This document shows, piece by piece, positions 119 to 17,094 of a stretch of DNA of 50,508 nucleotides. A program made the translations under genes and the position numbers. How positions within the stretch are numbered: position 1 is the first letter of the stretch; every line of letters starts with the position of its first letter. The DNA lies in IMG/VR virus record IMGVR_UViG_3300035698_033129, positions 1-50,508 of that record; one strand, written 5' to 3'. The notes beneath the pieces were generated by a model. It saw only the letters and a program-made list of their open reading frames with translations. It was not told the DNA's origin and did not search any database. Origin of the DNA: a virus.

Positions 119-1096
119 GGTTACAATTGTGATAACTGCATCCCAATCGACATTGAGGATCATCGAATCGATGGTACAAAACTATGGTCAATTGTCTGGA
201 CGAATGGAGCTGCTGGTTGGAAGTATTCATTTAAAAACAGTGAGGATGGTGATGATTTGGTAGCCGCTATCTTAAGTGAGCAAAATGATGGATATTACCC
301 AATTGACATAGAGCTGAACGATGAGGGATATGGAGTTCTATATACCACCGATGTCTTCCAACATACTGTCCATGTAAATATCAACTACGAAGTACTAGAA
401 GCAGATGTCCAGACTGCCAAAGCCAATTCCGTTATTCCATATGATTTTGAGATATATGAATCTAACGGAGTAAAATATTACGCCATGTTGGTTATCATCC
501 TTGCTAATCCTCCCTTTGGTGGCAAAGAGCGCAAGGAGATCCAGCAAAACTTCAATATCAAGACAGGGGAGACTGCCTTTCTCTTCCTTCAGCACTTTAT
601 CAAATATTTAAAAGCAGGTGGTAGAGGGGCTGTGGTTATTAAAAATACGTTCCTTTCTGATTCCAAAAATGCATCTAAGGCATTACGCCAGGAGTTGTTG
701 GAGGGCTGTAATTTACATACGGTGTTGGATTGTCCTGGTGGTACTTTCCTTGGGGCTGGTGTGAAGACCGTGGTTCTACACTTTGAAAAGGGAGCGCCTA
801 CCAGGAAAATTTGGTATTACCAGCTTGATCCTGGTAGAAACATGGGCAAGACCAATTCGCTCAATGATGATGACCTGAAGGAGTTTGTTGAACTGCAAGC
901 TACTTTTGCAGATAGTGATAAGTCTTGGACAGTGAATGCAGAAGAGATTGACAAGAGTAGTTTTGATATCTCAGTGAAGAATCCCAACAAGTTAGGGGAA
1001 GCACTATTACGAGATCCACAGAAGATCCTCAAAGAAATTGCAACATTGGATGCTGAGAGTGAAAAGGTACTGGAACGGATTAGGGGTATAATATGA
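113..1096 (+). pseudogene. hsdM: Chimeric, truncated type I methylase subunit (hsdM 3' part)
   Basis: From about base 487 to the stop the frame encodes the C-terminal half of a type I restriction-modification methylase. It starts at the N6-adenine catalytic motif NPPF (LANPPFGGKE) and continues through VVIKNTFLSD and the usual C-terminal tail. The N-terminal helical domain and the AdoMet-binding motif I are absent. The preceding roughly 125 codons (113-486) are unrelated: they carry a CxxC and two PIDIE-containing units, possibly a bacterial tandem-repeat domain. The fused frame has no convincing start; TTG at 257 is the first candidate. The 3' end overlaps hsdS by 4 bp, as in an intact operon. 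I infer a deletion or IS-linked fusion that removed methylase function; an assembly chimera is the alternative. Confidence 0.7.
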
Positions 1097-2355
1097 AAGA
1101 AGGTTGGCAGCAATTCAGCCTGGATGAGATTACGACGAAGATTGGTAGTGGAGCTACGCCCAAAGGGGGGAAGAAAGCCTATAAGTCAGAAGGAATATCA
1201 CTCTTCCGGAGTCTCAATGTCTATGATGGTGAGTTTAGAGAAAAAGGCCTAGCTTTTATTGATGAAGATCAGGCAGCTAAACTATCAAATGTCGTGGTGA
1301 AAGAAGGAGATGTCTTATTAAATATCACTGGAGCATCGATTGCAAGGTGTTGTGTTACACCAAAACACTACCTCCCTGCCAGAGTGAACCAACATGTATC
1401 CATCATTCGCCCAAGAACTGAGGTGATTGATTCAGGTTTCTTATCCCTCCTCCTTACTGCAAAGGAATACAAAGGCAGACTCCTTTACGAGGGGGAGAAG
1501 GCTGGAGCAACTCGACAGGCATTAACAAAGGCACAGCTTCAGAGTTTCAAGATTATCCTTCCATCCCTTCCAGAACAAAAACGTATTGTCACTTTCCTGG
1601 ATGAGGTGTTTGCGAGCATCGGCCAAACAGCTTCCAATGTCAAGAAGAACCTCGATAATGCCTGTGAGATGTTTGAAAGCTACCTTAATGGCATCTTCAC
1701 TCAGAAGGGCGAGAAGTGGGCTGAGAAAATTCTTGGAGATCTTACAGAGAAAATCACAAAAGGTTCTTCACCAAAGTGGCAAGGCATTAACTATGTTGAA
1801 AAGCCCGGCATACTTTTTATAACCAGTGAGAATGTTGGCACGAACTCAATGAATTACAAGAAAACCAAGTTTGTTGAAGAAGTGTTCAATGAGAAGGATA
1901 CCAAGTCGATACTCAAAAAAGGTGATGTTCTGACTAATATCGTAGGTGCATCAATTGGAAGAACTGCTGTTTTTGATCTTGATGATGTTGCAAACATAAA
2001 TCAAGCAGTCTGCTTGATACGCTGTGATAAGGATAAGCTCATAAATATATACCTTGCCTATCTCCTTAACTCTCCATTCTTTAAGCAAATACTACACGAT
2101 AATGAAATTGACAATGCTCGTGCGAATTTGAGTTTAGGTTTTTTTCGATCACTAAAAATACCTATTCCTAGCCTGACAGAGCAGAATAAACTTATCAGTA
2201 GTATAGAGGCTGTCTCATTTGAAACTCAACGCCTTGAATCCATCTACCAACAAAAACTCACAGCACTAACAGAACTCAAACAATCAATCCTCAAAAAAGC
2301 AGTCACTGGTGAACTCACAACCAAATCGAGCAAACTGCAAGTGGAAAACGCATGA
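1093..2355 (+). CDS. hsdS: Type I restriction-modification specificity subunit HsdS
   Basis: The 420-aa protein has the standard two-half layout. Each half has a target recognition domain followed by a conserved helical spacer. The first TRD covers about residues 5-150 (start WQQFSLDEITTKIGSG, then GDVLLNITGASI); the second covers about 210-350 (GDVLTNIVGASIGR). Spacers carry the PSLPEQKRIV and PSLTEQNKLI motifs. It would direct the methylase and restriction subunits to a bipartite DNA target. It overlaps hsdM and hsdR by ATGA-type 4-bp junctions, so the three are translationally coupled. The length is normal for the family and no frameshift is seen. With hsdM damaged, this subunit may have no working methylase partner unless one is encoded elsewhere. 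Confidence 0.9.
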   Translation: MKEGWQQFSLDEITTKIGSGATPKGGKKAYKSEGISLFRSLNVYDGEFREKGLAFIDEDQAAKLSNVVVKEGDVLLNITGASIARCCVTPKHYLPARVNQHVSIIRPRTEVIDSGFLSLLLTAKEYKGRLLYEGEKAGATRQALTKAQLQSFKIILPSLPEQKRIVTFLDEVFASIGQTASNVKKNLDNACEMFESYLNGIFTQKGEKWAEKILGDLTEKITKGSSPKWQGINYVEKPGILFITSENVGTNSMNYKKTKFVEEVFNEKDTKSILKKGDVLTNIVGASIGRTAVFDLDDVANINQAVCLIRCDKDKLINIYLAYLLNSPFFKQILHDNEIDNARANLSLGFFRSLKIPIPSLTEQNKLISSIEAVSFETQRLESIYQQKLTALTELKQSILKKAVTGELTTKSSKLQVENA

Positions 2356-4757
2356 CCTACGATCTCAATGAAGCCGAAACACGTGCCGAACTGATTGACC
2401 CTGCCCTTGCAGCAGCAGGATGGGGTAAAGTTGATGGCAGTCGGATTAGGCGTGAAGTAATAGCACACGGTAGACTCATAGGTGGTGGCAAGCGAAGCAA
2501 ACCAGATATTGCTGATTATGTATTAGTCTATCGTGGTCAGAAACTGGCCGTCCTTGAAGCTAAACGATTTAGTCTGCCTGACACTGAGGGAGTTGGACAA
2601 GCAAAACGTTATGCTACCAGACTCCAAACCCGATTTGCGTACTCAACCAATGGCAAAGGAATCTACCGTGTTGATATGGAGACAGGTGAAGAGGGCTATG
2701 TCAGTAACTATCCGACTCCTGATGAATTGTGGAATGAAACCTTTACTGAACCAAACAGATGGCGTGATCACTTCTCTGAAATTCCTTTTGAGGACAAGAG
2801 TGGAAGCTGGGAGGCGCGTTATTATCAACACAATGCAATTAATAAAGCTCTGGAAGCGATTGTTGAGGGTAAGGATCGAATTCTGCTGACATTGGCCACA
2901 GGTACAGGTAAGACCTTTATTGCCTTTCAGCTGACATGGAAGCTCTTTCACAGCCGCTGGAATTTGAAGGATTGGAGGAGTGGAACAGAACCAAGTCGAA
3001 GGCCTCGTATCCTTTTCCTAGCTGACCGGAACATCCTTGCTGATCAAGCCTACAATTCATTCTCTGCTTTCCCTGAGGATGCTCTAGTCAGGATTTCTCC
3101 TGATGCAATCCGTAAGAAAGGAATGGTTCCGAAAAACGGAAGTGTCTTCTTTACAATATTCCAAACCTTCATGTCAGGTAAAGATGAGGAAGGCAATCCA
3201 GCACCCAGTTTTGGTGACTATCCTCCAGACTTCTTTGACTTCATTGTAATTGATGAGTGCCATCGAGGCGGGGCCAATGACGAGAGCAACTGGCGGGGCA
3301 TTATGGAGCACTTCTCTCCAGCTGTTCAATTGGGACTGACAGCAACACCTAAGCGAGATAAGAACGTTGACACATACAACTACTTTGGAGAACCGGTCTT
3401 TATATATTCTCTAAAAGAAGGGATCAATGATGGATATTTAACCCCGTTTAAAGTTAGGCAGATTGCTACTACACTTGATGATTATGTCTATACCCCCGAT
3501 GACAAGCTGATTGAAGGAGAGGTGGAGGAAGGCAAGCGGTATGATGAAGATGATTTCAACCGCATTATTGAGATCCGCGAGCGTGAAGCGTATCGCGTTA
3601 AGCTGTTTATGGAAATGATCAGTCAGAAGCAAAAGACACTGGTATTCTGTGCAACACAGGCACACGCAGCCGCTGTGCGTGACCTAATCAATCAATACAA
3701 AACTAGTTCAGACACCAACTACTGTATCAGAGTGACAGCCAATGATGGAGCAGAGGGTGAACGCTGGCTACGTGTCTTTCAAGATAACGAGAAAACGATT
3801 CCTACAGTCCTCACAACCTCACAGAAGCTCTCAACAGGTGTAGATGCTCGTAATGTTCGCAACATCGTGTTGATGCGTCCTGTAAATACCATGATTGAAT
3901 TTAAGCAGATCGTTGGTCGAGGTACACGTCTGTTTGATGGTAAAGACTACTTCACGATCTATGACTTCGTTAAAGCCTATGAGCATTTCAATGATCCTGA
4001 GTGGGATGGTGAACCATTAGAACCGGAACCATGTAATCGGTGTGGTAATCAACCATGTACTTGTATAATTGAGCCACTAAAGGAGTGTTCAGTTTGTGGT
4101 AAACTCCCCTGTGAGTGTCCAAGTATCCCTAAACCTTGTCCTAAATGCGGATCAGATCCATGTGTTTGTAAGAAGCGGACCAAGGTAAAAATCAAGCTTG
4201 CTGATGGTAAAGAACGCGCCATTCAGTCTATGACAGCAACCACATTCTGGAGCCCTGATGGTAAGCCGATGTCAGCAACTGAATTCATTGAGCGCTTGTT
4301 TGGTGACCTTCCAGAGCTGTTTAAGGATGAGGATGAACTTCGTGCTCTATGGAGCAAGCCAGATACTCGAAAGAAACTAATTACTGGGCTGGAAGAGAAG
4401 GGGTATGGTATGGATCAGTTAACCGAGATTAGACAAATGATTGATGCTGTAAAGAGTGATCTCTTCGATGTGCTTGCCTATATAGCATTTGCACTACCGA
4501 CAATTACCAGAGAAGAACGCGTGAATAACAGCAAGGATCGCATCTTTGAAGACTATTCCAATAACAATCAGCAACAGTTTCTCTCCTTCGTTCTGGAACA
4601 CTATATTGCTCAGGGAGTTGGTGAATTGGATCAAGAGAAGCTACCTGACTTGCTGGAATTGAAATATCATTCCGTAGGGGATGCTGTAACGGAGTTGGGT
4701 GGTGTTGCCGAGATACGGGGATTGTTTGTTGGCTTCCAGGAGCACCTGTATTCATAG
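2352..4757 (+). CDS. hsdR: Type I restriction endonuclease subunit HsdR (EcoEI-like)
   Basis: The 801-aa motor and nuclease subunit cuts unmodified DNA after ATP-driven translocation. The N-terminal PD-(D/E)xK nuclease is visible as KPDIADYVL then LEAKRF (about residues 55-75). The SF2 helicase follows: Walker A ATGTGKT (about 183), DECH box (about 303), LTATP (about 328) and VGRGTRL (about 522). Residues about 560-607 hold three tandem Cys-rich units of the form CxxCGxxPCxC, a likely zinc-binding insert also known from EcoEI-type HsdR. It overlaps hsdS by 4 bp. The frame is intact. Because hsdM upstream is broken, an active HsdR would need a methylase supplied elsewhere; otherwise the whole system is probably inactive. 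Confidence 0.93.
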   Translation: MTYDLNEAETRAELIDPALAAAGWGKVDGSRIRREVIAHGRLIGGGKRSKPDIADYVLVYRGQKLAVLEAKRFSLPDTEGVGQAKRYATRLQTRFAYSTNGKGIYRVDMETGEEGYVSNYPTPDELWNETFTEPNRWRDHFSEIPFEDKSGSWEARYYQHNAINKALEAIVEGKDRILLTLATGTGKTFIAFQLTWKLFHSRWNLKDWRSGTEPSRRPRILFLADRNILADQAYNSFSAFPEDALVRISPDAIRKKGMVPKNGSVFFTIFQTFMSGKDEEGNPAPSFGDYPPDFFDFIVIDECHRGGANDESNWRGIMEHFSPAVQLGLTATPKRDKNVDTYNYFGEPVFIYSLKEGINDGYLTPFKVRQIATTLDDYVYTPDDKLIEGEVEEGKRYDEDDFNRIIEIREREAYRVKLFMEMISQKQKTLVFCATQAHAAAVRDLINQYKTSSDTNYCIRVTANDGAEGERWLRVFQDNEKTIPTVLTTSQKLSTGVDARNVRNIVLMRPVNTMIEFKQIVGRGTRLFDGKDYFTIYDFVKAYEHFNDPEWDGEPLEPEPCNRCGNQPCTCIIEPLKECSVCGKLPCECPSIPKPCPKCGSDPCVCKKRTKVKIKLADGKERAIQSMTATTFWSPDGKPMSATEFIERLFGDLPELFKDEDELRALWSKPDTRKKLITGLEEKGYGMDQLTEIRQMIDAVKSDLFDVLAYIAFALPTITREERVNNSKDRIFEDYSNNNQQQFLSFVLEHYIAQGVGELDQEKLPDLLELKYHSVGDAVTELGGVAEIRGLFVGFQEHLYS

Positions 4758-5639: not shown

Positions 5640-5726
5640 GCCTGGATGGCGGAATTGGTAGACGCTCGAGACTTAAAATCTCGTGCCCGCAAGGGCGTGC
5701 CGGTTCGATTCCGGCTCCAGGTACCA
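5640..5726 (+). tRNA. tRNA-Leu (anticodon UAA), attachment site
   Basis: An 87-nt class II tRNA folds fully. The acceptor stem pairs GCCTGGA with TCCAGGT (first pair G-U). The anticodon stem is CGAGA/TCTCG around loop CTTAAAA, placing anticodon TAA at 5674-5676. The long variable arm has stem CCC/GGG, the T arm contains GGTTCGATTCC, and CCA is encoded at 5724-5726. It reads UUA leucine codons. The 3' 60 bp are repeated at 11698-11757, marking this as the integration target of the element that follows. The tRNA is intact, as expected when an element restores the 3' half. Confidence 0.96.
5667..5726 (+). repeat. Left attachment repeat (attL) of the 6-kb element
   Basis: This is the 3' 60 bp of tRNA-Leu, from the anticodon stem to CCA. 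It matches 11698-11757 at 56 of 60 positions, and the last 31 bp are identical. The right copy has no 5' tRNA half, the classic sign of integrase-mediated insertion into a tRNA 3' end. Confidence 0.9.
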
Positions 5727-5798
5727 CGCTCCAATAAAGGCTTACAGCCTGTTTTGGCCTCCTCGATATTTTCCAAATTCTCCGGATATTTTGCCACC

Positions 5799-5818
5799 GG
5801 GACACCTCTGGGACACCT
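5799..5818 (+). repeat. Putative integrase arm sites, left end
   Basis: Two direct copies of GGGACACCT lie at 5799-5807 and 5810-5818, 11 bp apart, 73 bp inside the left attachment repeat. Similar words occur near the right end of the same element (11523-11561). Helical phasing and presence at both ends fit arm-type binding sites of the P4-type integrase; this is inferred, not shown. Confidence 0.5.
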
Positions 5819-5892
5819 GAATCATTCCTTACCTGTATTTTTCAATCCAGATTTCTTTTACCGAAATCAATCGAAAATCAACAGGGGGAATA

Positions 5893-6039
5893 ATGCCAGA
5901 AAAAACCGATCAAGAAAGAATTGAAGTACCGGACATTGATGCGAATGAAACAGACCTGTCAATTGAAGCAGAAGTAAATAGGATCCTCGACTGGGATCTA
6001 CAGCTTGAAGGGGATCTTTTTAGAGATCCTATGGACTAA
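5893..6039 (+). CDS. Small acidic hypothetical protein, 48 aa
   Basis: A short frame starts at ATG 5893 behind a strong AGGGGG Shine-Dalgarno 5-10 bp upstream. The 48-aa product is acidic (about fourteen Asp/Glu) with no hydrophobic segment. It is the first gene inside the 6-kb element. No family is recognised; a small DNA-mimic or antirestriction-like role is conceivable from the charge alone, but nothing supports it directly. Confidence 0.5.
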   Translation: MPEKTDQERIEVPDIDANETDLSIEAEVNRILDWDLQLEGDLFRDPMD

Positions 6040-6206
6040 TAAACGATAGAATATTTGACTTTCAATTTATTGAGCACTATCCTTTCATTGACTTGATTTT
6101 ATCCGGAATTTCAATACTTAAAACGGGAATTCAGAGAGGAAAAATGTCGTCAGATAAATAAAGAAAAGACTAACTGGTCAGCCCCACACAAGAACAAGGA
6201 GGCTTT

Positions 6207-6524
6207 TTGAAAAAGATATTTACTTTGCTCATCATTTTTTTGTTCAGTGTTAATGTTTATGCGTTTTGGTCCAAAAAGAGAAAGACCGTTGAAATCGAAG
6301 GTGCGATCTTTTATACGGATAAAATTATCGGTGCACAGCTAAGCGAAAAATGTGATTCTGAGGCCTCAAAAAAAGGTATCGCCACTTTCAAACTTGATTT
6401 GGGGGTTGAGAAAACTTGCTATATCGTTGTTCATGTTACCGGCAGAAAGCCCATCGTAATTTATTACAAATCTGAATCGAAAAGAGCACAAGCATTTGAA
6501 ACGCTGAAAAACGCCCTGGATTAA
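6207..6524 (+). CDS. Small exported hypothetical protein
   Basis: The 105-aa frame uses TTG as start, chosen because AAGGAGG lies at 6196-6202 at good spacing. The N terminus MKKIFTLLIIFLFSVNVYA is a signal peptide with probable cleavage after YA, giving a mature protein of about 86 aa with two cysteines that could form one disulfide. It is probably periplasmic. It sits rightward among leftward element genes, as cargo genes often do. Function is unknown. Confidence 0.65.
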   Translation: MKKIFTLLIIFLFSVNVYAFWSKKRKTVEIEGAIFYTDKIIGAQLSEKCDSEASKKGIATFKLDLGVEKTCYIVVHVTGRKPIVIYYKSESKRAQAFETLKNALD

Positions 6525-6951
6525 CATGCTCTCACTTTCTGATTGAAGGAGAGGTTGGCGCTGGAAGTCCCTTGGGGCGTTTTATTCATCATATTATCGC
6601 TAAGATAATCCTTTTTCCCCATCCCAAGCCTACCAATATCTCTCCAATCCAATAGACCAAAATCCGACCAGGTAGTTTCTGCCAGCTTAGCCACACAAAA
6701 CAAAAACAAAAATTAATTCAAGGTCTTGTCACTAACTGAAGACCGTGTTACGGTTCAGACCGTTGATATTGAAAATAAACCGAATTTTGTCGAAGAGGAA
6801 TTTTTAATGCCGAATAAAGAGTTGATCAAAGTGACCGGAATTATCAAGGAGTTCTAAAAATGAAGAATGTGTTGATCAGTATAATACTGGTTATATTTGG
6901 ACTACAGACGTTAACCCACGCCTGCCCCTTGTATTCTTTCGTATACTCTCG
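6525..6951 (+). other. Non-coding or decayed stretch with two gene fragments
   Basis: No complete gene is seen. At 6726-6857 a frame of about 43 codons ends in TGIIKEF and has no ribosome site, so it looks like a 3' remnant. At 6860 a second frame begins with a convincing signal sequence (MKNVLISIILVIFGLQTL, then lipobox-like THAC). After about 30 codons it runs antisense into the 6952-7533 gene, suggesting a lipoprotein cut off by a rearrangement. Confidence 0.4.
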
Positions 6952-7533
6952 TTACTCTTTATCTATTGTGGGCCCCTGCCTTTGGATGAAATCATTCATA
7001 GCTATGTGGATAGCCTTTCTCTGTGACGTTCCAATGCTCTTACATAATTGGCTGAACTCTTCAATTGTTCTTTCCATCAGATTGAAGCTGACGGTCTTAA
7101 ATGGTTTTTCAAGTTTGATACCCGCAGACAAGGAACCGGCTTGTTGATATTCGTTCAAAATCCTCATTATCAAATCTTTCCTTTCAAACAGATCCCGGGT
7201 AAAAGATTCAATACTTTCATTCTTGCTTGTATCAATGCTCTCATTCTCTGACTGACGACTATCAGCTGATTCAATGGGTTTTTGTTCTGGTGTTTCAATT
7301 TCGTTTTGTTCCTTTTCCTGAATACTTGTATCAATGCTTTTTTTTTTGATTGTACTGTCCGGTTCCCTGATCGGCCATTTCCCTGATTTTACCGCTTTGG
7401 CATACTGTGACTTGATCGCCCTCAGTGTGTTGTCTTTCTTTTCTGGGAATGCCTTGGACAATTCCGCGTTTTTAAATCCAAGGTGTTCGTCCATCCAATG
7501 AAAGATTTCTCGTTTGTCGCTTTTGATTCTCAT
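6952..7533 (-). CDS. Putative RHH-type DNA-binding protein of the 6-kb element
   Basis: The 193-aa protein has three parts. An N-terminal helical region (1-60) is rich in Lys. A low-complexity middle (about 63-110) has ESIDTS-type repeats. A C-terminal segment (about 145-185: KTVSFNLMERTIEEF then SQRKAIHIAMNDFI) is patterned like a ribbon-helix-helix or plasmid-partition DNA-binding domain. It lies downstream of the Rep-like gene and the iteron region, where plasmid copy-control or partition genes often sit. Start ATG 7533 has AAGG upstream. The role is inferred from context. Confidence 0.6.
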   Translation of the reverse strand: MRIKSDKREIFHWMDEHLGFKNAELSKAFPEKKDNTLRAIKSQYAKAVKSGKWPIREPDSTIKKKSIDTSIQEKEQNEIETPEQKPIESADSRQSENESIDTSKNESIESFTRDLFERKDLIMRILNEYQQAGSLSAGIKLEKPFKTVSFNLMERTIEEFSQLCKSIGTSQRKAIHIAMNDFIQRQGPTIDKE

Positions 7534-7680
7534 GTTGTGCCTTGGTTATGGTTAGACTAATTTGAGGCCGAAATTTTTTCGACTGGTATTTTTAAGTGTT
7601 TTTTCTGCTTTTTAGTTATTCGGTTATGCTTGTTTGAATACTTATAAACTCTGTTATGGTTGGCTTACTATAGAACGCAT

Positions 7681-7860
7681 ACATAAACGGAGTCAGATTT
7701 TCAGTTCAAATATTTGACCGAATTTCCTTTAAACCAGCGTTATACCGTGGATAACTGAATATTACTTTTTGTTCTGCCTCCGTTTTTGTAAGACAGATTA
7801 ACTATGATCTGCCTCCATTTTTGTATGTAGTAAGGCCCTTTTCTGACTCCGTTTTTGCAT
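7681..7860. repeat. Iteron-like repeats, possible replication origin of the element
   Basis: Read on the minus strand, near-copies of ACAAAAACGGAGGCAGA occur at 7773-7791, 7808-7826 and 7842-7860, spaced 34-35 bp. A fourth, inverted copy (ACATAAACGGAGTCAGA on the plus strand) lies at 7681-7697. The flanking 7540-7740 stretch is AT-rich. The repeats overlap and follow the end of a Rep-like gene. Iterons beside a Rep gene plus an AT-rich tract is the layout of theta plasmid origins. Confidence 0.55.
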
Positions 7861-8314
7861 GCAAGATTCTATTTTTTCGTTCCTTCATTTTTGAATTGTT
7901 TGGGTCTGTAATTCCTCTAAGTCCAGGCTTCGATTTCATTCTGCTTTTTTCTTTGCTAATGAAGTCTGGCTTCCCATACCGTTTCCATCGTTCACTTAAA
8001 CCGTAAAGAGTGTAGTTGCCTTTCGACTGGCCCCCATAATGCTCGATATCGATAAAGCCGGACTTCATCAGCTCTTCAATTGCCCTATTAAATTTTGCAG
8101 CACTATATCCGTGGTCTTTTTGGGCGTTTGCATATGAGAAGACTAGCTCTTTGTTATTGGTGCAGATCCAATTCCCTGACTTTCTGGGAAGCTCGCTCAT
8201 TTTTCTTTTCATTAAGAACTGAAAAAAAATGTATTTAGCTGACCCTCCCAAGCGCTTAAAGGCTTCTGATCGCACAACTGAGCTTTCAATTGTTATTGTT
8301 TTCGGTATTGCCAT
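7802..8314 (-). CDS. Putative replication initiator-like winged-helix protein
   Basis: The 170-aa protein has a winged-helix look in residues 15-110: an initial AFKRLGGSAKYIFFQFLM helix, then a strand and helices ending in AAKFNRAIEELMKSGFIDIEHYG and a wing. That resembles the first domain of plasmid and satellite replication proteins or phage replisome organisers. A basic tail follows (KEKSRMKSKPG and on) that is itself encoded within the iteron repeats. It lies between alpA and the RHH-like gene, all leftward. Start ATG 8314 follows AAAGGCGA. A transcription factor of the same fold is the main alternative. Confidence 0.55.
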   Translation of the reverse strand: MAIPKTITIESSVVRSEAFKRLGGSAKYIFFQFLMKRKMSELPRKSGNWICTNNKELVFSYANAQKDHGYSAAKFNRAIEELMKSGFIDIEHYGGQSKGNYTLYGLSERWKRYGKPDFISKEKSRMKSKPGLRGITDPNNSKMKERKNRILHAKTESEKGLTTYKNGGRS

Positions 8315-8504
8315 AAAATCGCCTTTTGTTGCAGGGGAGCGCTCCTAGGCGAAAAAGGAGCACTTTTTTCACTGGTTGCCATCCAGCGCCCCCGCAGTTT
8401 ATGTCTATAATTCTGATAGCTAAGTATTCAATCCTTCTGTTTGGACCTCTCAGGCCCTTCAGAGGCCTCAAACCGCATCAGAAACAGCCGTTCTAACTTT
8501 GCTT

Positions 8505-8705
8505 TCAGTCCTTTTGACTTCTCGATCGGATCCACTCTTGAATCTCTGACAACTTCCAACCAACCGCACGAGGCCCGATCTTTACTCGTTTTGGGAATAA
8601 ACCTTCTTTCTCCAAGCGCCATAAAGATGAACGTGAGTAACCCCCTGTTAATGCCTGGACTGCTTCCATTCTGATGATTTTATCTTCGGTTGTTGTGGTT
8701 TCCAT
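8505..8705 (-). CDS. AlpA/Vis-family excisionase-regulator
   Basis: The 66-aa protein is an AlpA-family MerR-like DNA-binding protein: RMEAVQALTGGYSRSSLWRLEKEGLFPKR is the recognition helix region and WKLSEIQEWI the typical end. In P4-like satellites the family member Vis drives excision and represses a late promoter. Start ATG 8705 has AAGGA upstream. It lies between the integrase operon and the Rep-like gene, matching the int-alpA arrangement of P4-like elements. Length fits the family. Confidence 0.88.
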   Translation of the reverse strand: METTTTEDKIIRMEAVQALTGGYSRSSLWRLEKEGLFPKRVKIGPRAVGWKLSEIQEWIRSRSQKD

Positions 8706-8805
8706 TTCATTTTCCTTCTATTGGTTATGATTTATTCAGGCACCGTGTAAACACGTTTACCACCGCATAAACCATAGTCACACGAAAAAGAAAATAAATT
8801 ATTTG

Positions 8806-8827
8806 AGGTGCGGGATTTTCCGCACCT
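8806..8827 (-). terminator. Rho-independent terminator after the integrase operon
   Basis: AGGTGCGG (8806-8813) pairs perfectly with CCGCACCT (8820-8827) around loop GATTTT. Read leftward, the stem is followed by AAATAATTTATTTTC, a T-rich tail. It lies 67 bp past the end of the 8895-9953 gene. Confidence 0.7.
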
Positions 8828-8894
8828 TATGCCAGTGGGAAAAGATCAGAAAAAGTAAGTGGAATGAGGGGAGCTTTATATTTTGCGGGTTGGG

Positions 8895-9953
8895 CTACTT
8901 CTTTTCAAGTCTTATTTTTTTAGTCAAGCCACTTAATGAGATGCTTGGTTTTACAAAAGGAAATAGAATATTTTTTAGATATGTTGAATTATCGGGGTAT
9001 TTTTCTCCCAGCTCATTTAGAATAGCTTGGGATTCCTTTATACCAAGAGGCGTATTAAAACTCATCTCTCTTATTTTTGTCTTAATATACTCTTGAATTT
9101 CTTTTTCTTTCGAAGTTATGAATTGTGTATTAATAGTTTTTGGCAATTCATCGAACAGTAAAATATAGATTACTTCTATTTTAAAATCGAAAATAAACTC
9201 AGAAAATCCAATAACCTTGTTGGCTACTTCTATAACATCCTGAACCTTGTACACAATATTTATGATATGTTTTAGCCTGTTTTGAAAACTATTTAGTATG
9301 TTGAAGTCTTTTTTGTTAGTTAGTTTTTTCTGTTTATCTTTATCGCCTAAATTTAAATCAATAACTCTATTACGACCATCATCTGCAATACTGGCTAAAG
9401 TCCAATTTTTGCTCCTTTTCTCTGCCTTTTTTAGAAATTCAAGATGTTCTTCTGCCTGCTCAATAGACATACCAAGATTGTCTGCAACATCCCTGATATT
9501 CATTCTATACAGAATCTCATCCATCGAATTTTGATTGATTTCAATTATTTCATTTAGAAGTTTGTTCCGGCTTTCGTGCAACCAATTTAAAAAATCCTTT
9601 TTGACTTGATCGGTTTTCTCGATTATATATTTTTCCATTTCTTCAAGTTCTGAAACTTTGAGAAAATGGCCTTTGAAAAACAAATGAGTTAAATATGATG
9701 ATGGTTCGCTTCGCCAATACCGAAAGAATTCATAGGTCAATTTACGTTCCTCTTGGTGATCTTTATTTTTTTTAGCGGTAACAATATCCCCCCAGATTTC
9801 TGTCAGTGTTGAAAAACGCGTTCCCGGCATATCCTCCGAGTATTCTGGAACATCCTGATAAATTCCCTCTGTATTTAACTCATGCCTAAACCTTGCTTTT
9901 TCATCTTCCGGCAATTCAGAATATAGCTTTCTAATTTGGTCGATTGATTTCAT
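8895..9953 (-). CDS. Unknown 352-aa protein cotranscribed with the integrase
   Basis: This gene starts 3 bp after the integrase stop, with GGGAGG inside the integrase end as ribosome site, and is followed by a terminator, so the two form one operon. The protein is charged and mostly helical, AT-rich in codon use, with no signal peptide or clear membrane segment. Residues about 150-190 (NIRDVADNLGMSIEQAEEHLEFLKKAEKR) look like a helix-turn-helix-like pair. The C-terminal half has long amphipathic helices. I do not recognise the family. Its position between int and alpA, where P4-like satellites carry variable cargo such as defence genes, makes it a candidate accessory gene. Confidence 0.75.
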   Translation of the reverse strand: MKSIDQIRKLYSELPEDEKARFRHELNTEGIYQDVPEYSEDMPGTRFSTLTEIWGDIVTAKKNKDHQEERKLTYEFFRYWRSEPSSYLTHLFFKGHFLKVSELEEMEKYIIEKTDQVKKDFLNWLHESRNKLLNEIIEINQNSMDEILYRMNIRDVADNLGMSIEQAEEHLEFLKKAEKRSKNWTLASIADDGRNRVIDLNLGDKDKQKKLTNKKDFNILNSFQNRLKHIINIVYKVQDVIEVANKVIGFSEFIFDFKIEVIYILLFDELPKTINTQFITSKEKEIQEYIKTKIREMSFNTPLGIKESQAILNELGEKYPDNSTYLKNILFPFVKPSISLSGLTKKIRLEKK

Positions 9954-9956
9954 TTT

Positions 9957-11474
9957 TCACGCCTCCCTATTCCGAAGTTGAAGCACTTTTTCCCCGGCAA
10001 TGATCTGCTTTATTTTTTCTTGCCACCCATTGGACAAATCAAATAAATCTTTGAATTCGTCATTTTTCAGTTTTCCAATCGTCTTCACAATCAACTGCCA
10101 TTGTTTGGCGTTTGGATCAATGGCCTTAAGGAAATCAGCGCCGGTATGCAAAAACGCTTTGAATGATCTGGTCATGACGATTGAATTATCCTTGTCATCA
10201 AAAAATCTCAGCGTATCATCGTCTACGAGTTGGATTATCGTATTCATCTCCTGCCAAGTTCCAAGGGCCTCCGCTTTCTCTTCCATGTAATCGCTATCAT
10301 TATAAACCGCCATCATTCCGTGCATCTTGTGGTTCAGAATTTTTTCGCAGATATACGGTGGTATTCCAGCATTTCCTAAATGTGTTGATAGTGTTCGCCT
10401 AAAGTCGTGTACTGTGAATTTTTCGACTTCGCTTATCCAATTAATACGTCCTTCCTTATTCTCAAAAACTCGCCGCAATGATTTGTCGACAGTGGTGTAT
10501 AAAGTTGGCTTTTCCTTCGTTACAACTTGCAGCGACTGGCAGATATACCGGCTTTTACCTGACAGCATTTTTAGAATCTCAAAGCTGGTGGTTGTATCTT
10601 CATGCAGTGGTACCCGGTTCGATTCGTCATTTTTCGATAGTTCGATCGGAACCGTCCACGTTCTATTGGGTAAGTCCACATGACCCCTCTCTGCTTTTGC
10701 CAATTCGGAGACCCGCTGACCCGTCAAACAAAGAATTTTCAACATCTCCCTGACCTGAATACTAAATGGGGCTTCATCGATCAATAGCCAGAATTTCTTC
10801 AACTCCAATTTAGAGAGGTAGTGTTTTCTAGGCGTTTCCTTTCCTCCAACATGACGCTTTTTTATTCCCTCACTTGGATCGGTATCTATAATTTTTCTCC
10901 CAATGCACCAGCTTAAGAAAGATTTCATGGCACTTAAGGTGCGATTTGCCGAAACATTAGACCCACGTTTAACAATTTTATCAAGTATTGTTATCAGATG
11001 CCGTCCTTCGATCTCCCTTATTTTTAGGTCCCCAATTTCCCGCAGTATATCGCGGTCGAAGTATTCCGCTTGCTTGTATCCTGCTTTCAGAATTGGTTTT
11101 CCTTTGCCATCAACACCAAAAAGATACACCTGTTTATATTCATCGAACGCCTGTTGAACAGATAACTCTGTCTGCGCCTTAATTGCCTCGAACCGCTTCT
11201 CCAGGTTCAAATCAGCACCCTTTCGGATTTTTTGCCGCGCTTCATCGTATGCCTGTCTTGCATCCTTTAAAGAAATCTCCGGATATTTCCCAATAGTAAG
11301 CCGTTTAGCGTGACCACCTGGCGGTTTATATCGCAATATGAATGATTTTGTTCCATTGGGCCTGACTCGAACGTACAATCCTGGCTTATTGTTATCGGCT
11401 GCGTAATACTCTTTTGCGTCTGGTTTTAGGTTTTTAACACCGGGATCGTTTGAAAAACTTTTTGTCTCTGGCAT
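9957..11474 (-). CDS. int: P4-type tyrosine integrase
   Basis: The 505-aa site-specific recombinase integrates and excises the 6-kb element at tRNA-Leu. The N-terminal arm-binding DUF4102 domain is residues about 10-90 (GLYVRVRPNGTKSFILRY, IGKYPEISLKDAR). The catalytic domain has Arg in TGQRVSEL, the H-x-x-R box in VHDFRRTLSTH, His in LNHK and the tyrosine in MAVYNDSDY. The C terminus is about 90 residues longer than usual. The start lies 224 bp inside the right attachment repeat, the normal place for a P4-type integrase, and the gene reads away from it. Confidence 0.95.
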   Translation of the reverse strand: MPETKSFSNDPGVKNLKPDAKEYYAADNNKPGLYVRVRPNGTKSFILRYKPPGGHAKRLTIGKYPEISLKDARQAYDEARQKIRKGADLNLEKRFEAIKAQTELSVQQAFDEYKQVYLFGVDGKGKPILKAGYKQAEYFDRDILREIGDLKIREIEGRHLITILDKIVKRGSNVSANRTLSAMKSFLSWCIGRKIIDTDPSEGIKKRHVGGKETPRKHYLSKLELKKFWLLIDEAPFSIQVREMLKILCLTGQRVSELAKAERGHVDLPNRTWTVPIELSKNDESNRVPLHEDTTTSFEILKMLSGKSRYICQSLQVVTKEKPTLYTTVDKSLRRVFENKEGRINWISEVEKFTVHDFRRTLSTHLGNAGIPPYICEKILNHKMHGMMAVYNDSDYMEEKAEALGTWQEMNTIIQLVDDDTLRFFDDKDNSIVMTRSFKAFLHTGADFLKAIDPNAKQWQLIVKTIGKLKNDEFKDLFDLSNGWQEKIKQIIAGEKVLQLRNREA

Positions 11475-11522
11475 CTTCCGGCCTCTTGATTGTTTTTTCT
11501 ATGTCCTTTGACCACTTTTTTT

Positions 11523-11561
11523 GGTGTCCCAGGAATTTTCAGGGACACCTTCAGGACACCA
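11523..11561 (+). repeat. Putative integrase arm sites, right end
   Basis: An inverted GGTGTCCC (11523-11530), a direct GGGACACCT (11542-11550) and a near-direct AGGACACCA (11553-11561) lie just upstream of the P4-type integrase. They match the pair at 5799-5818 at the other end of the element. The last two are 11 bp apart, the same spacing as on the left. Confidence 0.5.
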
Positions 11562-11697
11562 AAATTCGTGGTTAGTCAAAAAACTTAATGGAACGTCTTG
11601 AACAATTGTTTCATATTTTATATAATAAATCAAACAGGTTAGGAATGTTATTTGAACTTTTTTGAGTGCTTAAAAAACGACATAAAACGAAGATATT

Positions 11698-11757
11698 CGA
11701 GGCTTAAAATCTCGTGTCCGTAAGGACGTGCCGGTTCGATTCCGGCTCCAGGTACCA
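11698..11757 (+). repeat. Right attachment repeat: 3' half of tRNA-Leu only
   Basis: This copy of the tRNA 3' half starts in the anticodon stem and ends at CCA. Against 5667-5726 it differs at four positions: A to G closing the anticodon stem (A-U becomes G-U), C to T and G to A that pair with each other in the variable arm, and one loop C to T. It ends the 6-kb element and is also the left boundary of the large prophage. Confidence 0.9.
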
Positions 11758-11847
11758 TGTTATTAGTAAAATTTCAGTAGGTTACAGTGGCAGTATACCT
11801 GAAAAAGATGGCCCGGAAGTGGCCCAGCGACTGTAAATCCGTTGAAA

Positions 11848-13080
11848 TCAAGACTTAGCAAACTCCCCCTTTAGATTCAGCACTTTACGTTCCTGTTTCT
11901 TCCTGTTCTTTTTACGTAATTCCAGCACTGCTTCTGTCACCATAATGGATTCTTGTTCGGAAGGAATCAGGTAACGGTCGAATGCTTTTGAGCGGTGACC
12001 GGTTCCACCTCGTTTAATTTGTTCTGGCGTTAATACCCGACTAAGAGCTGTCACGGTGGTGTGTTTGGTTCCAGGATACAAGGTGATACCATTGATCTCC
12101 AGTTCTTTACAGGCTTTCTTCCACCACCTGAGCAGAGTATCTCTCCCAAATGGACTCCCCAGTGTCGTTCCTCTTCTCGGTTTAATATTCCGAAAGAAAT
12201 ACAGAGAACCACCTACTGATGAGATCCAATGATCTCTGAGCAGATGGGAGTGCTCTGGAGCGATATGCACATACTTCGGCTCACCTTCTTTCGGATGGGG
12301 AAAGAATAGTACATTCTGATCCAACCATATATTATGCTCTTCCAGTTTCCTGAGCTCACCTGGTCGAATCTTGGGATAGAATGAAAGAAATAGTACTGCT
12401 ATCCAAATACGGGGATTGATATCGTAGAAAAGCTCTTTGATCTTATCAATGATCTTTTCCTGAACAGAAATATCAGTAATAGTTCGTAGTTTGGATTTAA
12501 AAGATATGGTTGGAAATTCCGGTAATTGTAATCCACTCCGTTTTTTCTCTCTGCGAACAACCCATTTCCAGAATCCCTGTAAATGACTTTTCCGTTCATT
12601 ACGGGTTTTGGCTCCGACCGTCTTTATTTCTTTTTTGAGAGACTGAGCATTGTTCAAGAAGTCTTCTATCTCTGGTTCAGCCAGATTTTTAATATTCCGG
12701 TCTCCCCATTCTTTTGCAGCGAGATCGAGAGTACGTTTGATATCTTTGTAGTGTTTGAAGCCGATTTCTTCCTCTTTCTTGACTTGGAGGTATGCGTCAG
12801 CCAAAGTTTTGAAACCAAGAGGATTAGTAGCTTCATAATCCCTTGGATCATACTCATTCTCACCGTATTTATACCGCAACATCGACAGAAATTGCTCTGC
12901 CTCTTTATAGCTCTGGAAACGTCTACGGGTTTTCTTTCCGAACTTGACACGTACCTTATTGACTGTCGATACCTTTTTGCATTCCAGGTTTTGGCAGATG
13001 AAGGCAGATAAATTTTTATCATGTTCCAGCTTACCCCTGCACAACGGACAGCTTTCCGATGTGTATATATTTCCCATCAT
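11848..13080 (-). CDS. int: Tyrosine integrase with N-terminal zinc ribbon (large prophage)
   Basis: I use ATG 13080 (MMGNIYTSESCPLC), preceded by AGGAGGAATCT, giving 410 aa. Residues 11-32 form a zinc ribbon (CPLC then CQNLEC). A SAM-like core-binding region follows at about 85-180 and a C-terminal catalytic domain after it. Visible catalytic positions are Arg in RPGELRKL, a Lys in the beta hairpin, His in TGHRSKAF and Tyr in FDRYL. The H-x-x-R box is degenerate (GTKHTT), with Lys where Arg is expected. It lies 91 bp from the tRNA-half repeat, so it probably used the same target. Two TGGCCC words 11 bp apart (about 11811-11827) in the gap could be arm sites. Confidence 0.88.
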   Translation of the reverse strand: MMGNIYTSESCPLCRGKLEHDKNLSAFICQNLECKKVSTVNKVRVKFGKKTRRRFQSYKEAEQFLSMLRYKYGENEYDPRDYEATNPLGFKTLADAYLQVKKEEEIGFKHYKDIKRTLDLAAKEWGDRNIKNLAEPEIEDFLNNAQSLKKEIKTVGAKTRNERKSHLQGFWKWVVRREKKRSGLQLPEFPTISFKSKLRTITDISVQEKIIDKIKELFYDINPRIWIAVLFLSFYPKIRPGELRKLEEHNIWLDQNVLFFPHPKEGEPKYVHIAPEHSHLLRDHWISSVGGSLYFFRNIKPRRGTTLGSPFGRDTLLRWWKKACKELEINGITLYPGTKHTTVTALSRVLTPEQIKRGGTGHRSKAFDRYLIPSEQESIMVTEAVLELRKKNRKKQERKVLNLKGEFAKS

Positions 13081-13239
13081 ACAGATTCCTCCTGAATATG
13101 ATGGCAGATTAATATGGTGGGGGTTAGCTGTCAAATTGTTCCTAGTTGGTTAAACTTTTTTCAACTCTAAAAATTTGATTTTTGGACAAAAAATCTCTAT
13201 TGTTATTTCCGACAATTAATTCAAACCTAAGGATAGAAA

Positions 13240-13659
13240 ATGGATAAAGAAGAAAGAGACCTTCAAATTTTGTTGTCTTTGCACCAGAATCTGCGTGCCA
13301 ATCAGGAGCTATATGTTAATCAAAAATGGAAAACGATGCACTTTGCTTTTTTGCTATATGCAGGGCTTTACTTCATCCAGGATGCTTGCTGCTCGCCAAC
13401 TGCCGAACCCTTTATAATCATACTTTTAGTTGTTGTGTTGATATCAAGTACCCTTCTTTTAATTCTTCATGACGGCTCATTGGCTACAGAGCGAGTAGCT
13501 GATTCAAGATTTCAAAAACACGAATTGATAAATAAGGCACATAAGCGCATGTACCGTGGCACATCTTCATGCAATAGATCTTGCCTGATACACTGGATAT
13601 TCCAGGCATTAAACATAATGGGATTTGTTTCTGTTCTGGTTTTGATATTGGCATATTAA
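13240..13659 (+). CDS. Small membrane protein, likely lysogeny cargo
   Basis: The 139-aa protein has about three hydrophobic segments: around 33-45, FIIILLVVVLISSTLLLIL at about 59-77, and the C-terminal IMGFVSVLVLILAY. A charged N terminus and a Cys-containing loop lie between them. It reads rightward against the leftward early operon and stands alone next to the integrase, the usual place for a lysogenically expressed moron such as a superinfection-exclusion protein. Start ATG 13240 has AAGGATAG upstream. The family is not recognised. Confidence 0.65.
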   Translation: MDKEERDLQILLSLHQNLRANQELYVNQKWKTMHFAFLLYAGLYFIQDACCSPTAEPFIIILLVVVLISSTLLLILHDGSLATERVADSRFQKHELINKAHKRMYRGTSSCNRSCLIHWIFQALNIMGFVSVLVLILAY

Positions 13660-13669
13660 GTATTCCCGA

Positions 13670-13894
13670 TCACTTAACAGTTTTCCCTTCGAGCAGCTGA
13701 ATACAGTTATCGATTTGTTCAATGTCCGTGTCTTCAATTTCGATTATTCCACCCCTAGACCCCTTGACGTCTTGCTTTAATCCTTCAAGGAAATTGAGTG
13801 CAGCCTGGGTTGGTGTTATTTTATTGCCATGCATAGCAGGATCTCCGGAGCTGTTTGTTTTTGATTCGTAGATTTTACGATAAACGTCTTGCAT
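13670..13894 (-). CDS. Hypothetical protein, end of early operon
   Basis: The 74-aa protein has AGGGGAA before ATG 13894. It is soluble and mixed charge, with an acidic stretch IIEIEDTDIEQIDN. It is the last gene of the leftward early operon, 13 bp after the ASCH gene. No family is recognised. Confidence 0.6.
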   Translation of the reverse strand: MQDVYRKIYESKTNSSGDPAMHGNKITPTQAALNFLEGLKQDVKGSRGGIIEIEDTDIEQIDNCIQLLEGKTVK

Positions 13895-13907
13895 GATTCC
13901 CCTATCC

Positions 13908-14276
13908 TCAATATCTAAAATTAGTCCAATGTATTATGGTTCCTTTGAAGCCACCTTTGAAGAACGTCACCATCTTGAGAATAGAAGAAAAACCATCATT
14001 TCTGGCCAACTTGATTGCTATCGCGGCATCTATAATACGTTGACCATCGATACACAGTTTGAATTCACCCTCAAACTCCGGACAGTAGAGTTCAAATGAT
14101 TGCGTGGACCGACATTTATCGGTCTTGAAACAATGGTAATTCTTAGTCCGGACTCCAGTGGCAAAATGGATGGTTCGACCTGCATGCCATCGCTTTCCTC
14201 TATCAACTCGGATCGTATGAATCTTTGCTCCTGAGAGGATTGGCCGAACAAATTGAGGTTTAAACCCTAGTATCAT
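13908..14276 (-). CDS. ASCH-domain (PUA-like) protein
   Basis: The 122-aa protein opens with LGFKPQFVRPILSGAKIHTIR and GRTIHFATG, the pattern of ASCH domains, a PUA-like RNA-binding fold common in phage early regions. Residues 1-60 hold the conserved Lys/Thr/Arg groove. Later residues (FCIDGQRI-like strand, IAIKLARNDGF) complete the barrel. It overlaps the preceding gene by 4 bp and has GGGGGAGGAACC upstream. A role in RNA or modified-nucleoside recognition is family-based; the actual substrate is unknown. Confidence 0.72.
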   Translation of the reverse strand: MILGFKPQFVRPILSGAKIHTIRVDRGKRWHAGRTIHFATGVRTKNYHCFKTDKCRSTQSFELYCPEFEGEFKLCIDGQRIIDAAIAIKLARNDGFSSILKMVTFFKGGFKGTIIHWTNFRY

Positions 14277-14551
14277 GGTTCCTCCCCCTTCTTACCTTTC
14301 TCCTCCAGATACTCCCTCATCACCTTTCCAACCAGCTGGGCCGGGTACACCCCCTGCCGGGTCGCTTCGATTTGGATATCCATTTTCAACTGATCATCCA
14401 GCAGATAATTGGCTTGTTTCTTCTGAGAGTCCTTCGATTTTACAGGGGTCTCCTTTTCAGTCCGTTTCGATTTGGGCACCGGATTCACTGGACTTGACTT
14501 GACAAACTGTTTCGCTTTTTCTCTTCGTTCTAGCTTTTTTCCGAGATCCAT
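14273..14551 (-). CDS. Putative partner of ParA (RHH/partition-like)
   Basis: The 92-aa protein has a basic, disordered N-terminal half (KSKRTEKETPVKSKDSQKK) and a C-terminal segment YLLDDQLKMDIQIEATRQ followed by AQLVGKVMREYLEEK, patterned like a ribbon-helix-helix DNA-binding fold. It follows parA after 9 bp. Small RHH proteins downstream of ParA usually act as the centromere-binding partner. I infer that role; direct homology was not checked. Confidence 0.6.
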   Translation of the reverse strand: MDLGKKLERREKAKQFVKSSPVNPVPKSKRTEKETPVKSKDSQKKQANYLLDDQLKMDIQIEATRQGVYPAQLVGKVMREYLEEKGKKGEEP

Positions 14552-14560
14552 GATCCTCCG

Positions 14561-15244
14561 TTATTTTAAGAATTGAACCATCTGGATTACGATCTCCAGG
14601 AGGTCATCAAGGGCTGCACCGGCCTGGATGCGATCATTCACAAATCGGGCGTTTTCCGAATATTCCTTCAACGTCTGACCGTTTTCAGAAAATTTTTCAT
14701 ATACTTTCCGGTACCTGAAAACAGCCTGCAAAGTGGTCTGCTGCAGGGGGTCGAATTTTGTGATGGTTTTCTCGACACTGGCATTGGGGTGAACAAAGGC
14801 CGGCAGCAGAACGATCTGCCCGCCTCTCTCATTAGCTTCGGCTGCATCTTCGAGCAAAGGAACCAGGTGATCCAGCAGTGAGTTCGCATCGAACTCGGAC
14901 TCCTTGACCGGAATGATCACCAGATCGGAGTAAACCAGAGCGGTTCTTGTTTTTCCGCCAGCCTCGCTTTCACCCGGGCAATCGATAAAGACGTTGGTAA
15001 ACCGGTTGACATAGTCCTCCAGGATATCAGGAGTCAATTCCTCATTGCCATAAAACTCGACTCTTGGATCATTGTTTTTTTGGTCATTAAATATCAACTT
15101 CCGTTCTATGTACCAATTCCAGATAGACCCCTGCGGATCCTGGTCAATAATACAACTGTTGTTGAAAAGAGAGCACAGACACAATGTCAATGTCGATTTG
15201 CCGATCCCTCCCTTTGGATTCACTATTGAAATTATCTTTCCCAT
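14561..15244 (-). CDS. parA: ParA/MinD-family partition ATPase
   Basis: The 227-aa P-loop ATPase has the deviant Walker A NPKGGIGKST (residues 9-18), switch I-like DQDPQGSIWNW, and Walker B VFIDCPGESEAG. These are the hallmarks of plasmid ParA partition ATPases. It sits in the leftward replication operon, 18 bp after the TOPRIM gene and upstream of a small basic RHH-like protein. Partition genes are typical of plasmid-prophages such as P1 and N15, but here the phage also has an integrase. It may stabilise an extrachromosomal stage or have been recruited for another role. Confidence 0.88.
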   Translation of the reverse strand: MGKIISIVNPKGGIGKSTLTLCLCSLFNNSCIIDQDPQGSIWNWYIERKLIFNDQKNNDPRVEFYGNEELTPDILEDYVNRFTNVFIDCPGESEAGGKTRTALVYSDLVIIPVKESEFDANSLLDHLVPLLEDAAEANERGGQIVLLPAFVHPNASVEKTITKFDPLQQTTLQAVFRYRKVYEKFSENGQTLKEYSENARFVNDRIQAGAALDDLLEIVIQMVQFLK

Positions 15245-15262
15245 CTCGTTCTCCTGTTGTTA

Positions 15263-16162
15263 TTAGATTCCATTGTCAAGAAACTCCATTACTTCATCCC
15301 AGCAGCTGCTGGTCTTCCGGAGAAGTCGGACATGCTCTTCTTGAAGTTTTTCCTGCTCTTTAAAAAGGTCTAGATCTCTATACCTATCGACATAATCCTG
15401 AATCAAGGACATGAGCACCTCCGGATCCAGCGCATCCAGTTCCCACGAGCTCCGGCCGAACCGTTTGATATAGCCTTTTGCTCTGGAGTCTTTGAGCTTG
15501 GTCGGGTTGGGAGGAGGATCGTACTCTTCAACCTGATCCATATTCAGCGCCACCCGCACCACCTCAACATCAGATTCGAAGATCTCCAGCCGATCCAGGT
15601 TATCCCGGGTCATGTCGATTCCGGATGGATCATGATCCCCCAGGTGAAGGACAATCACTTGATTGACATCATAGTTTTGGATCCGCATGGCAGCTCGCCA
15701 CATTTCCGACTGACTGACATACCCCTTACAGGCGAAAAAAGGCACATCCAGGCGATTGCAGATTTTTTCGACCACACCGACCAGCGCTTCTTTTTCAACC
15801 CAGACCTCCACCCGGTATTCCTGGTCTTCCCACTTATCAAGTGCATATCTATAAATATTACCTCTAATAATCTCAGCCGGGGCATCATAGTGATAAATGC
15901 TCATCAGATTCCGGGTCCGATCCACCATCTGATTCCAGTCCAGGCATCCAGCCAGCCTTGCATCGTTCAGGATACTGCCCAGCCGTTTATATGACTTTTC
16001 ATTATTGGGGATGATGTCCCGAGCGACAAACTGGTAGTACAGTTGTCGGAGGGTAAGGTCGAATCCCTTGTCCGCATACTCATCACATATCTGATCGGCA
16101 ATATCGATCAGTCGACGCGATGATGCACGAAACTTTCGCTCGACATAGCAGATCTTAGGCAT
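15263..16162 (-). CDS. Topo6A/Spo11-like TOPRIM protein
   Basis: I place the start at ATG 16162 (MPKICYVERKF), which overlaps the previous gene by 8 bp; product 299 aa. Residues about 35-65 (LTLRQLYYQFVARDIIPN) resemble the winged-helix start of topoisomerase VI A-like proteins, including a Tyr pair. The TOPRIM domain follows: Glu in VEKEALVG and DHDPSG as the Asp-x-Asp motif (LGDHDPSGIDM). It could nick, cleave or bind DNA during phage replication; related stand-alone phage proteins are mostly uncharacterised. It is cotranscribed with parA. Confidence 0.75.
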   Translation of the reverse strand: MPKICYVERKFRASSRRLIDIADQICDEYADKGFDLTLRQLYYQFVARDIIPNNEKSYKRLGSILNDARLAGCLDWNQMVDRTRNLMSIYHYDAPAEIIRGNIYRYALDKWEDQEYRVEVWVEKEALVGVVEKICNRLDVPFFACKGYVSQSEMWRAAMRIQNYDVNQVIVLHLGDHDPSGIDMTRDNLDRLEIFESDVEVVRVALNMDQVEEYDPPPNPTKLKDSRAKGYIKRFGRSSWELDALDPEVLMSLIQDYVDRYRDLDLFKEQEKLQEEHVRLLRKTSSCWDEVMEFLDNGI

Positions 16163-16355
16163 TGAACCCCCATGCGAAAGCTCCGGAACTGCTGGAATAA
16201 TAATTCTTGAATCCCTGTTCATTGACCGGATTAAAATCTGTCTTTTCCCCTTGCGATTCAAGCACTTCGATTTTCCCTCCCTTTTTTGAAAATTCTTCCA
16301 TCGCTGTTTGGATCTCCTTTCTGGAGATTCGAAACCGTTCTTTTTTTGCCATCAC
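16155..16355 (-). CDS. Small hypothetical protein
   Basis: The 66-aa basic protein (MMAKKERFRISRKEIQTAMEE) has a Gly-rich, Ser-rich C terminus. It overlaps both neighbours by a few bases (4 bp with the gene before, 8 bp with the TOPRIM gene), which supports real translation in the early operon. It may be a small nucleic-acid-binding protein; no family is recognised. Confidence 0.65.
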   Translation of the reverse strand: MMAKKERFRISRKEIQTAMEEFSKKGGKIEVLESQGEKTDFNPVNEQGFKNYYSSSSGAFAWGFNA

Positions 16356-16795: not shown

Positions 16796-16838
16796 TTTCC
16801 TCCTCCAAATAAGTTGACCTTCATTTTTTTTGTAATCT

Positions 16839-17094
16839 TGTAACCTGGCCTGAAAACGATACATGCAAGCCTTTTTTTTCAGTAGCTTAGCAGGTTACAA
16901 AAAGTTGTAACTTTTCTACAAAAATTTGTAAACGTATTGAAATTATAAGCAAAAATAGACCTTGATTTTGTAACCTTTTTGTAACTTTTTTTGTAACCTG
17001 ATTACAGTTTGATTACAGAAAAGTTACAAACCAAAATATGACTTACTATTCTGATATTATATATTTAAAGGATATATATTCTTATAAGGTTACA
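16839..17094. repeat. GTAAC/GTTAC repeat array, candidate phage replication origin
   Basis: This AT-rich stretch between the primase-helicase gene and the next early gene carries at least eight copies of the core TGTAAC or its complement: 16839, 16892 (inverted), 16906, 16969, 16980, 16992, 17022 (inverted) and 17087 (inverted). Most extend to TTTTGTAACCT. The region has no gene. Iterated sites beside a replicative helicase suggest initiator binding or an early operator. Confidence 0.55.

Follow-up and report, generated by a model that had tools for sequence, protein, structure and literature searches.

A tRNA-Leu(UAA) element of int-X-alpA-rep type, with a layout like that of PICMIs and PICIs, next to a P2-type prophage for which the same tRNA is a plausible site

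The locus described here lies in a viral record of IMG/VR (IMGVR_UViG_3300035698_033129), analysed over its positions 1 to 50,508 (50,508 nucleotides, hereafter the window). A single tRNA was called in it by ARAGORN, an intact tRNA-Leu(UAA) gene (anticodon TAA) on the plus strand at 5640-5726. Part of this gene, 61 nt long, is repeated on the same strand at 11697-11757. The copy is identical to the gene at 57 of its 61 positions, the last 31 nt being the same in both, and the 30-nt 3′ end of the tRNA had 0 chance matches in 100 shuffles. An earlier sequence-only reading had proposed that tRNA-Leu repeats flank an element of about 6 kb at this place, which these data bear out; the start that it gave, 5667, falls inside the tRNA, and the element rather runs from 5727 to 11757 (6.03 kb). 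It is bounded by the tRNA gene, its left attachment site, and by the partial copy, its right attachment site, which is probably also the near attachment core of the prophage that follows, and the same doubled arm motif stands at both of its ends.

The four substitutions of the partial copy lie at 11702, 11717, 11721 and 11726. As read from the sequence, two of them compensate each other within the variable arm (5686 C to T together with 5695 G to A in the numbering of the gene). Such a pair suggests less a decayed copy than a tRNA fragment picked up by the element from a different, functional tRNA-Leu, that of another host. As to the present host, the comparison of the tRNA reached 86% in Desulfobacterota, and the flank left of the tRNA, a type I restriction-modification locus on the plus strand at 257-4757 with the 3′ part of HsdM, HsdS and HsdR (Pfam N6_Mtase, Methylase_S, ResIII and EcoEI_R_C), was uninformative in this regard, the search for relatives with HsdR pointing to a mobile restriction gene.

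The doubled motif GGGACACCTnnnGGACACC, with a spacing of 11 bp, marks the two ends of the element; with up to 2 mismatches allowed, these are its sole two matches in the window (0.02 expected). Its left version, GGGACACCTCTGGGACACC, occupies 5799-5817 on the plus strand, 73 bp from the end of the tRNA; the right one, GGGACACCTTCAGGACACC, is found at 11542-11560, also on the plus strand and 137 bp from the core, and GGACACC is present once more near it, as an inverted single copy at 11523. These motifs are like the arm sites that an integrase would bind, and a similar doubled arm motif has been described in helper-embedded PICIs (PMC10111431). Since matched arms on either side of a tRNA core are what is expected of the attP of an integrase, both ends would belong to one unit.

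Inside these limits the minus strand carries, in this order, int505, orf352, AlpA, rep170 and a gene of 193 aa, a layout that can be written as int-X-alpA-rep. The first (9957-11474) is a P4-class tyrosine integrase, with an arm domain (PF13356, 4.5e-20) and matches to PF00589 (3.3e-21) and phrog_1 (3.4e-59). It is followed, after a gap of 3 nt, by the contiguous orf352 (8895-9953), which has no family match and whose position equals that of iolg/icg in the PICMIs (PMC10803314); no relatives of it were found in 218 genomes nor in plasmids, and it is unrelated to the int-alpA genes at nine other loci. The AlpA regulator or excisionase (8505-8705) matches PF05930 (4.1e-19) and phrog_2790 (3.5e-15), and rep170 (7802-8314) is a probable replication initiator, assigned by remote similarity to the DnaD-like helicase loader family (phrog_186, 1.4e-6). 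The P4-type integrase, AlpA and Rep-like genes noticed in the sequence-only reading are found again by family matches. The C-terminus of the product of the 193-aa gene (orf193, 6952-7533) shows weak similarity to a family of phage transcription regulators (phrog_3887, E=0.0018), and an ORF of 105 aa on the plus strand (6207-6524), without family match, would encode an exported protein, judging by its signal-like N-terminus. Fold predictions were too poor for use, with a pLDDT of 52 for rep170 and of 44 for orf352.

Four iteron-like repeats TCTGNCTCCRTTTWTGYA, against 0.07 expected, run into the 3′ end of rep170 (7680-7697 on the minus strand; 7773-7790, 7808-7825 and 7842-7859 on the plus strand) and constitute a candidate replication origin. 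Iterons together with a Rep make a plasmid-like replicon, and the scans with family profiles and PHROGs disclosed no primase, packaging or capsid gene among the ORFs of the element, so that it could be an integrative element foreign to phages. We consider it possible, if on balance doubtful, that it is such a plasmid-like element or a decaying island, made of an integrase, AlpA, Rep and iterons only. Its scant cargo and the want of a packaging gene agree with this; nevertheless, rep170, orf352 and orf193 have no relatives among 72,556 plasmids, AlpA is typical of satellites and prophages, and the matched arms at both ends speak against decay. No relatives of int505, rep170 or the prophage integrase were found in viral contigs either.

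The element is directly followed by a P2-type prophage, as the sequence-only reading had it, which extends from 11848 to 48662. Its tyrosine integrase, int428 (minus strand, 11848-13134; phrog_1, 5.7e-16), matched none of 50,697 phage records and turns its 3′ end towards the tRNA core. An early region (13240-24996) comprises ParA, a topoisomerase-like gene, a Toprim primase, CII (CP76), Rha and a repressor of Cro/CI type; then come, on the minus strand (25041-45324), a D12 methyltransferase and a P2-type late operon with tail, lysis, small terminase, capsid and protease genes and, on the plus strand (45462-48390), the gpP-like large terminase subunit and the gpQ-like portal. A zinc-finger late activator of Ogr/Delta type closes the prophage (plus strand, 48438-48662; phrog_603, 8e-8; PF04606, 1.7e-4, a value below the curated cut-off). 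The divergence of Q-P from O-N-M, the P2-type tail genes, Ogr and the integrase place it among the Peduoviridae, i.e., the P2-like phages, and the closest phage record to its terminase shows about 33% identity.

Some further features of the prophage deserve mention on their own. A ParA-type partition ATPase and the topoisomerase-like gene (phrog_6247, 7.7e-108) stand beside the integrase at 14561-16261, and a partition ATPase is also found in phi3. A perfect palindrome, GGTGTGGAATAAAGCTATTCCACACC, lies in single copy at 45388-45413, where the late genes O and P diverge, and is a candidate late-gene operator or terminator. At the other end, a 220-bp stretch of the Ogr-type gene (48462-48681) is duplicated with 86% identity at 49599-49810, as a truncated copy 1.1 kb to the right.

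Elements of a comparable build exist in Desulfobacterota, where relatives of rep170, with identities of up to 44%, were found in 8 of 218 genomes. One locus presents a tRNA-Met, int, another gene, alpA and rep in this order, a second one a tRNA-Ala, int, alpA and rep, and the element of a third (L164) stands beside restriction-like genes. The most instructive is L166 (genome G221, 7604-16183), an element of about 8.5 kb in a tRNA-Leu(UAA) with an exact 69-nt repeat 8.5 kb away, whose integrase sits at the distal end and faces the partial tRNA copy exactly as int505 does in the window. It has doubled arms as well: two copies of TGTAAGCA with a spacing of 11 bp, at 60 and 113 bp from its cores, which is comparable to the distances in the window. 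Its rep is 31% identical to rep170 (1.6e-16), and it encodes both a small (phrog_83, 7e-22) and a large terminase subunit (phrog_9, 2.9e-153), which makes it a candidate for a terminase-bearing satellite in its own right. The ORFs beyond it do not resemble a prophage, and no P2-like terminase was found in the genome that holds it. Given that its integrase is only 22% identical to int505 and that no AlpA gene was recognised in it, elements of this type are distant relatives by layout and rep rather than close copies.

These relatives lend some weight to the view of the element as a satellite like PICMIs and PICIs that depends on a different phage and is lodged next to this prophage by coincidence at a favoured tRNA. 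The TerS and TerL of L166, the size and gene order shared with PICMI115 and an arm motif like that of helper-embedded PICIs (PMC10111431) argue for it, whereas the missing primase, a site other than fis and the chance that similar elements are non-phage islands, as the one beside restriction-like genes may be, argue the other way; we regard it as a serious possibility that falls short of an even chance.

Whether the prophage uses the same tRNA is a separate matter. The distance of 91 bp from the second repeat, which the sequence-only reading had assigned to the start of the prophage integrase, is in fact that to its 3′ end (stop codon), the gene being on the minus strand. Among 345 Desulfobacterota genomes, 14 have a relative of int428; in 8 of them the 3′ end of int faces the 3′ end of a tRNA or tmRNA at about 15-100 bp; in the phage Smp131, attP lies about 100 bp downstream of int (PMC3931495). 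The habit of the int428 family of facing tRNA/tmRNA 3′ ends makes it plausible that the tRNA-Leu site is shared, and the prophage probably used the same core, earlier or later than the element. TGGCCC, present twice 11 bp apart on the plus strand at 11809-11825, is a possible arm site of this integrase.

Stacking of two elements would require the core in triplicate, and two copies were found. An overlapping IMG/VR contig (L083), 100% identical to 37801-50508 over 12,708 bases, runs 4.2 kb further, as far as the equivalent of position 54,734; a Wzz-like gene starts near its far end. A third tRNA-Leu copy is absent from the window and from this contig up to 54,734, that is, within 6 kb past the last recognisable gene of the prophage; the paired int428 arm motif does not recur at the far end over the same range, and no convincing direct repeat links that end with the int428 side. 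Searches for contigs overlapping beyond L083, or for others with the 5′ part of the tRNA, the core or the int428 arm, returned none. The window stops inside an IS66-type insertion of 2492 bp (transposase, 2.2e-86), whose left end is at 50382-50508 and whose right end lies in L083 (12582-15073). Since its inverted ends and the 8-bp duplication TGATTTAA match across the join, the latter looks sound and the insertion did not delete the end of the prophage, and a repeat of this kind explains why the assembly breaks at the end of the window.

The stacking at one tRNA site proposed in the sequence-only reading stands in part: two different elements do abut at the tRNA-Leu(UAA) core, but only two copies exist up to 54,734. 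A prophage integrated elsewhere, which merely adjoins the element, would account for the missing third copy in spite of a clean IS66 duplication with no deletion, and the Wzz-like gene at the far end indeed looks chromosomal. Against this, the geometry of the window is the one seen in those 8 of 14 int428 relatives, and the attP of Smp131 is placed likewise; we judge such a prophage rather unlikely. The far attachment site may have been lost, may lie farther out, or may belong to another site of integration.

The element had also been called P4-like. P4-like satellites are defined by seven key components (PMC8628076), among which only int and alpA are present here. A direct search for psu (PF07455) gave 0 matches in the window, Ogr_Delta matched in the prophage only and thus provided no delta for the element, no PHROG corresponding to sid was found among its ORFs of at least 60 aa, no primase family that could stand for the alpha primase-helicase was seen in its ORFs, and epsilon was absent by the same PHROG scan only. 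Membership of the P4 group is thus ruled out by the missing psu, sid, delta and primase.

A further step of the sequence-only reading, a satellite and its helper stacked in one site, gained no positive evidence. If the element were packaged by the adjoining prophage, as P4 is by P2, their adjacency at the tRNA core, the AlpA-type regulation, the Ogr-type activator of the prophage and the terminase genes of the related L166 would all make sense. However, besides the absence of psu and of any match to the P4 sid, delta and alpha families, the element and the prophage have no DNA in common beyond chance, and no P2-type cos, the kind of shared site that had been put forward as a check, stood out above chance (packaging of headful/pac type would leave no such trace). 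No TGT-N12-ACA site, the putative late operator, and no copy of the O/P palindrome occur in the element. Moreover, the search for a P2-like terminase gave nothing in six genomes with rep relatives, although its query did recover two other prophages of Desulfobacterota. Adjacency alone is unsurprising, since tandem elements at one site are already known, as reported for PICIs (PMC10111431). A true pair is accordingly very improbable in our estimation, and a helper-satellite bond between the two is unproven.

The reading that we prefer, and hold with fair though far from full confidence, is that of a compact, self-integrating, tRNA-targeting int-X-alpA-rep element, of a type that also exists in Desulfobacterota, which came to stand in tandem with the prophage by ordinary stacking. 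Int505 would join an attP, in which doubled arms flank the tRNA-Leu core, to the 3′ end of tRNA-Leu(UAA), and the tRNA would thereby be restored. Excision would be set off by AlpA, perhaps helped by orf352, and the freed circle would replicate from the iterons at the 3′ end of the rep170 gene, with rep170 as the initiator. As there are no packaging or capsid genes, a phage or some other carrier would be needed for its spread, and the element may possibly work like a minimal satellite. The P2-type prophage would have joined the same core earlier or later, at a favoured site. Against this reading stand the lack of any primase or packaging gene among the matches of the element, the absence of a third tRNA copy at the far end of the prophage up to 54,734, the low identity between int505 and the L166 integrase (22%), the AlpA that is not recognised in L166 and the remote similarity by which rep was assigned.

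Satellites are known mainly from Enterobacterales, Vibrionaceae and Gram-positive hosts. Minimal satellites would be extended to a little-studied phylum by an int-X-alpA-rep family that targets tRNAs in Desulfobacterota and has at least one form with a terminase; such a family would also be a testable case of the minimum needs of the smallest phage-dependent element. More boldly, and improbably as things stand, one might conceive a minimal satellite family at the tRNA genes of Desulfobacterota, in which a DnaD-like Rep and iterons replace the primase and which ranges from forms with a terminase of their own (L166) to wholly helper-dependent ones, here relying on the stacked P2-type prophage. 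A pair of P4/P2 type would matter more if true; the evidence does not carry it.

Among known systems, the prophage is alike to Smp131 and phi3, both Peduoviridae, in its P2-type late genes and Toprim primase. Its gene order, read from the minus strand, is collinear with that of Smp131, and its int 3′ end lies 91 bp from the core, against about 100 bp in that phage; it differs from both in its divergent terminase, in the position of ogr next to Q and in an integrase foreign to the phage records. P4 has in common with the element the class of its integrase, AlpA and a tRNA-Leu target; in turn, the element, at 6 kb against about 10, has no match to psu, sid, delta, epsilon or alpha, and its integrase is on the other side of the core.

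Gram-negative PICIs, helper-embedded ones included, show the same order of int, alpA and replication genes as the element (int505, AlpA, and rep170 with its iterons) and doubled arms flanking the core; they commonly target tRNAs, and tandems have been reported (PMC10111431). Unlike helper-embedded PICIs, the element is not inserted in a late gene and comes with no terminase, primase or helper that could be found; terS or other packaging-redirecting genes, absent from it, are present in L166. The closest parallel in size is PICMI115, a phage-inducible chromosomal minimalist island of Vibrio chagasii (PMC10803314), with 6,110 bp and the order int-iolg-alpA-prim-up. PICMIs have a primase, a fis site, hosts in the Vibrionaceae and a virulent helper phage, in which they are packaged as concatemers, whereas the element has int and alpA without a DUF3987/DUF5906 primase, a DnaD-like Rep with iterons instead, and a tRNA-Leu as its site. 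Both measure about 6 kb and combine int, a gene contiguous or overlapping with it, alpA and a replication gene, free of capsid-remodelling and packaging genes. The label that fits best is that of a tRNA-Leu(UAA) int-X-alpA-rep element of PICMI/PICI-like layout, beside a P2-type prophage that may well use the same tRNA.
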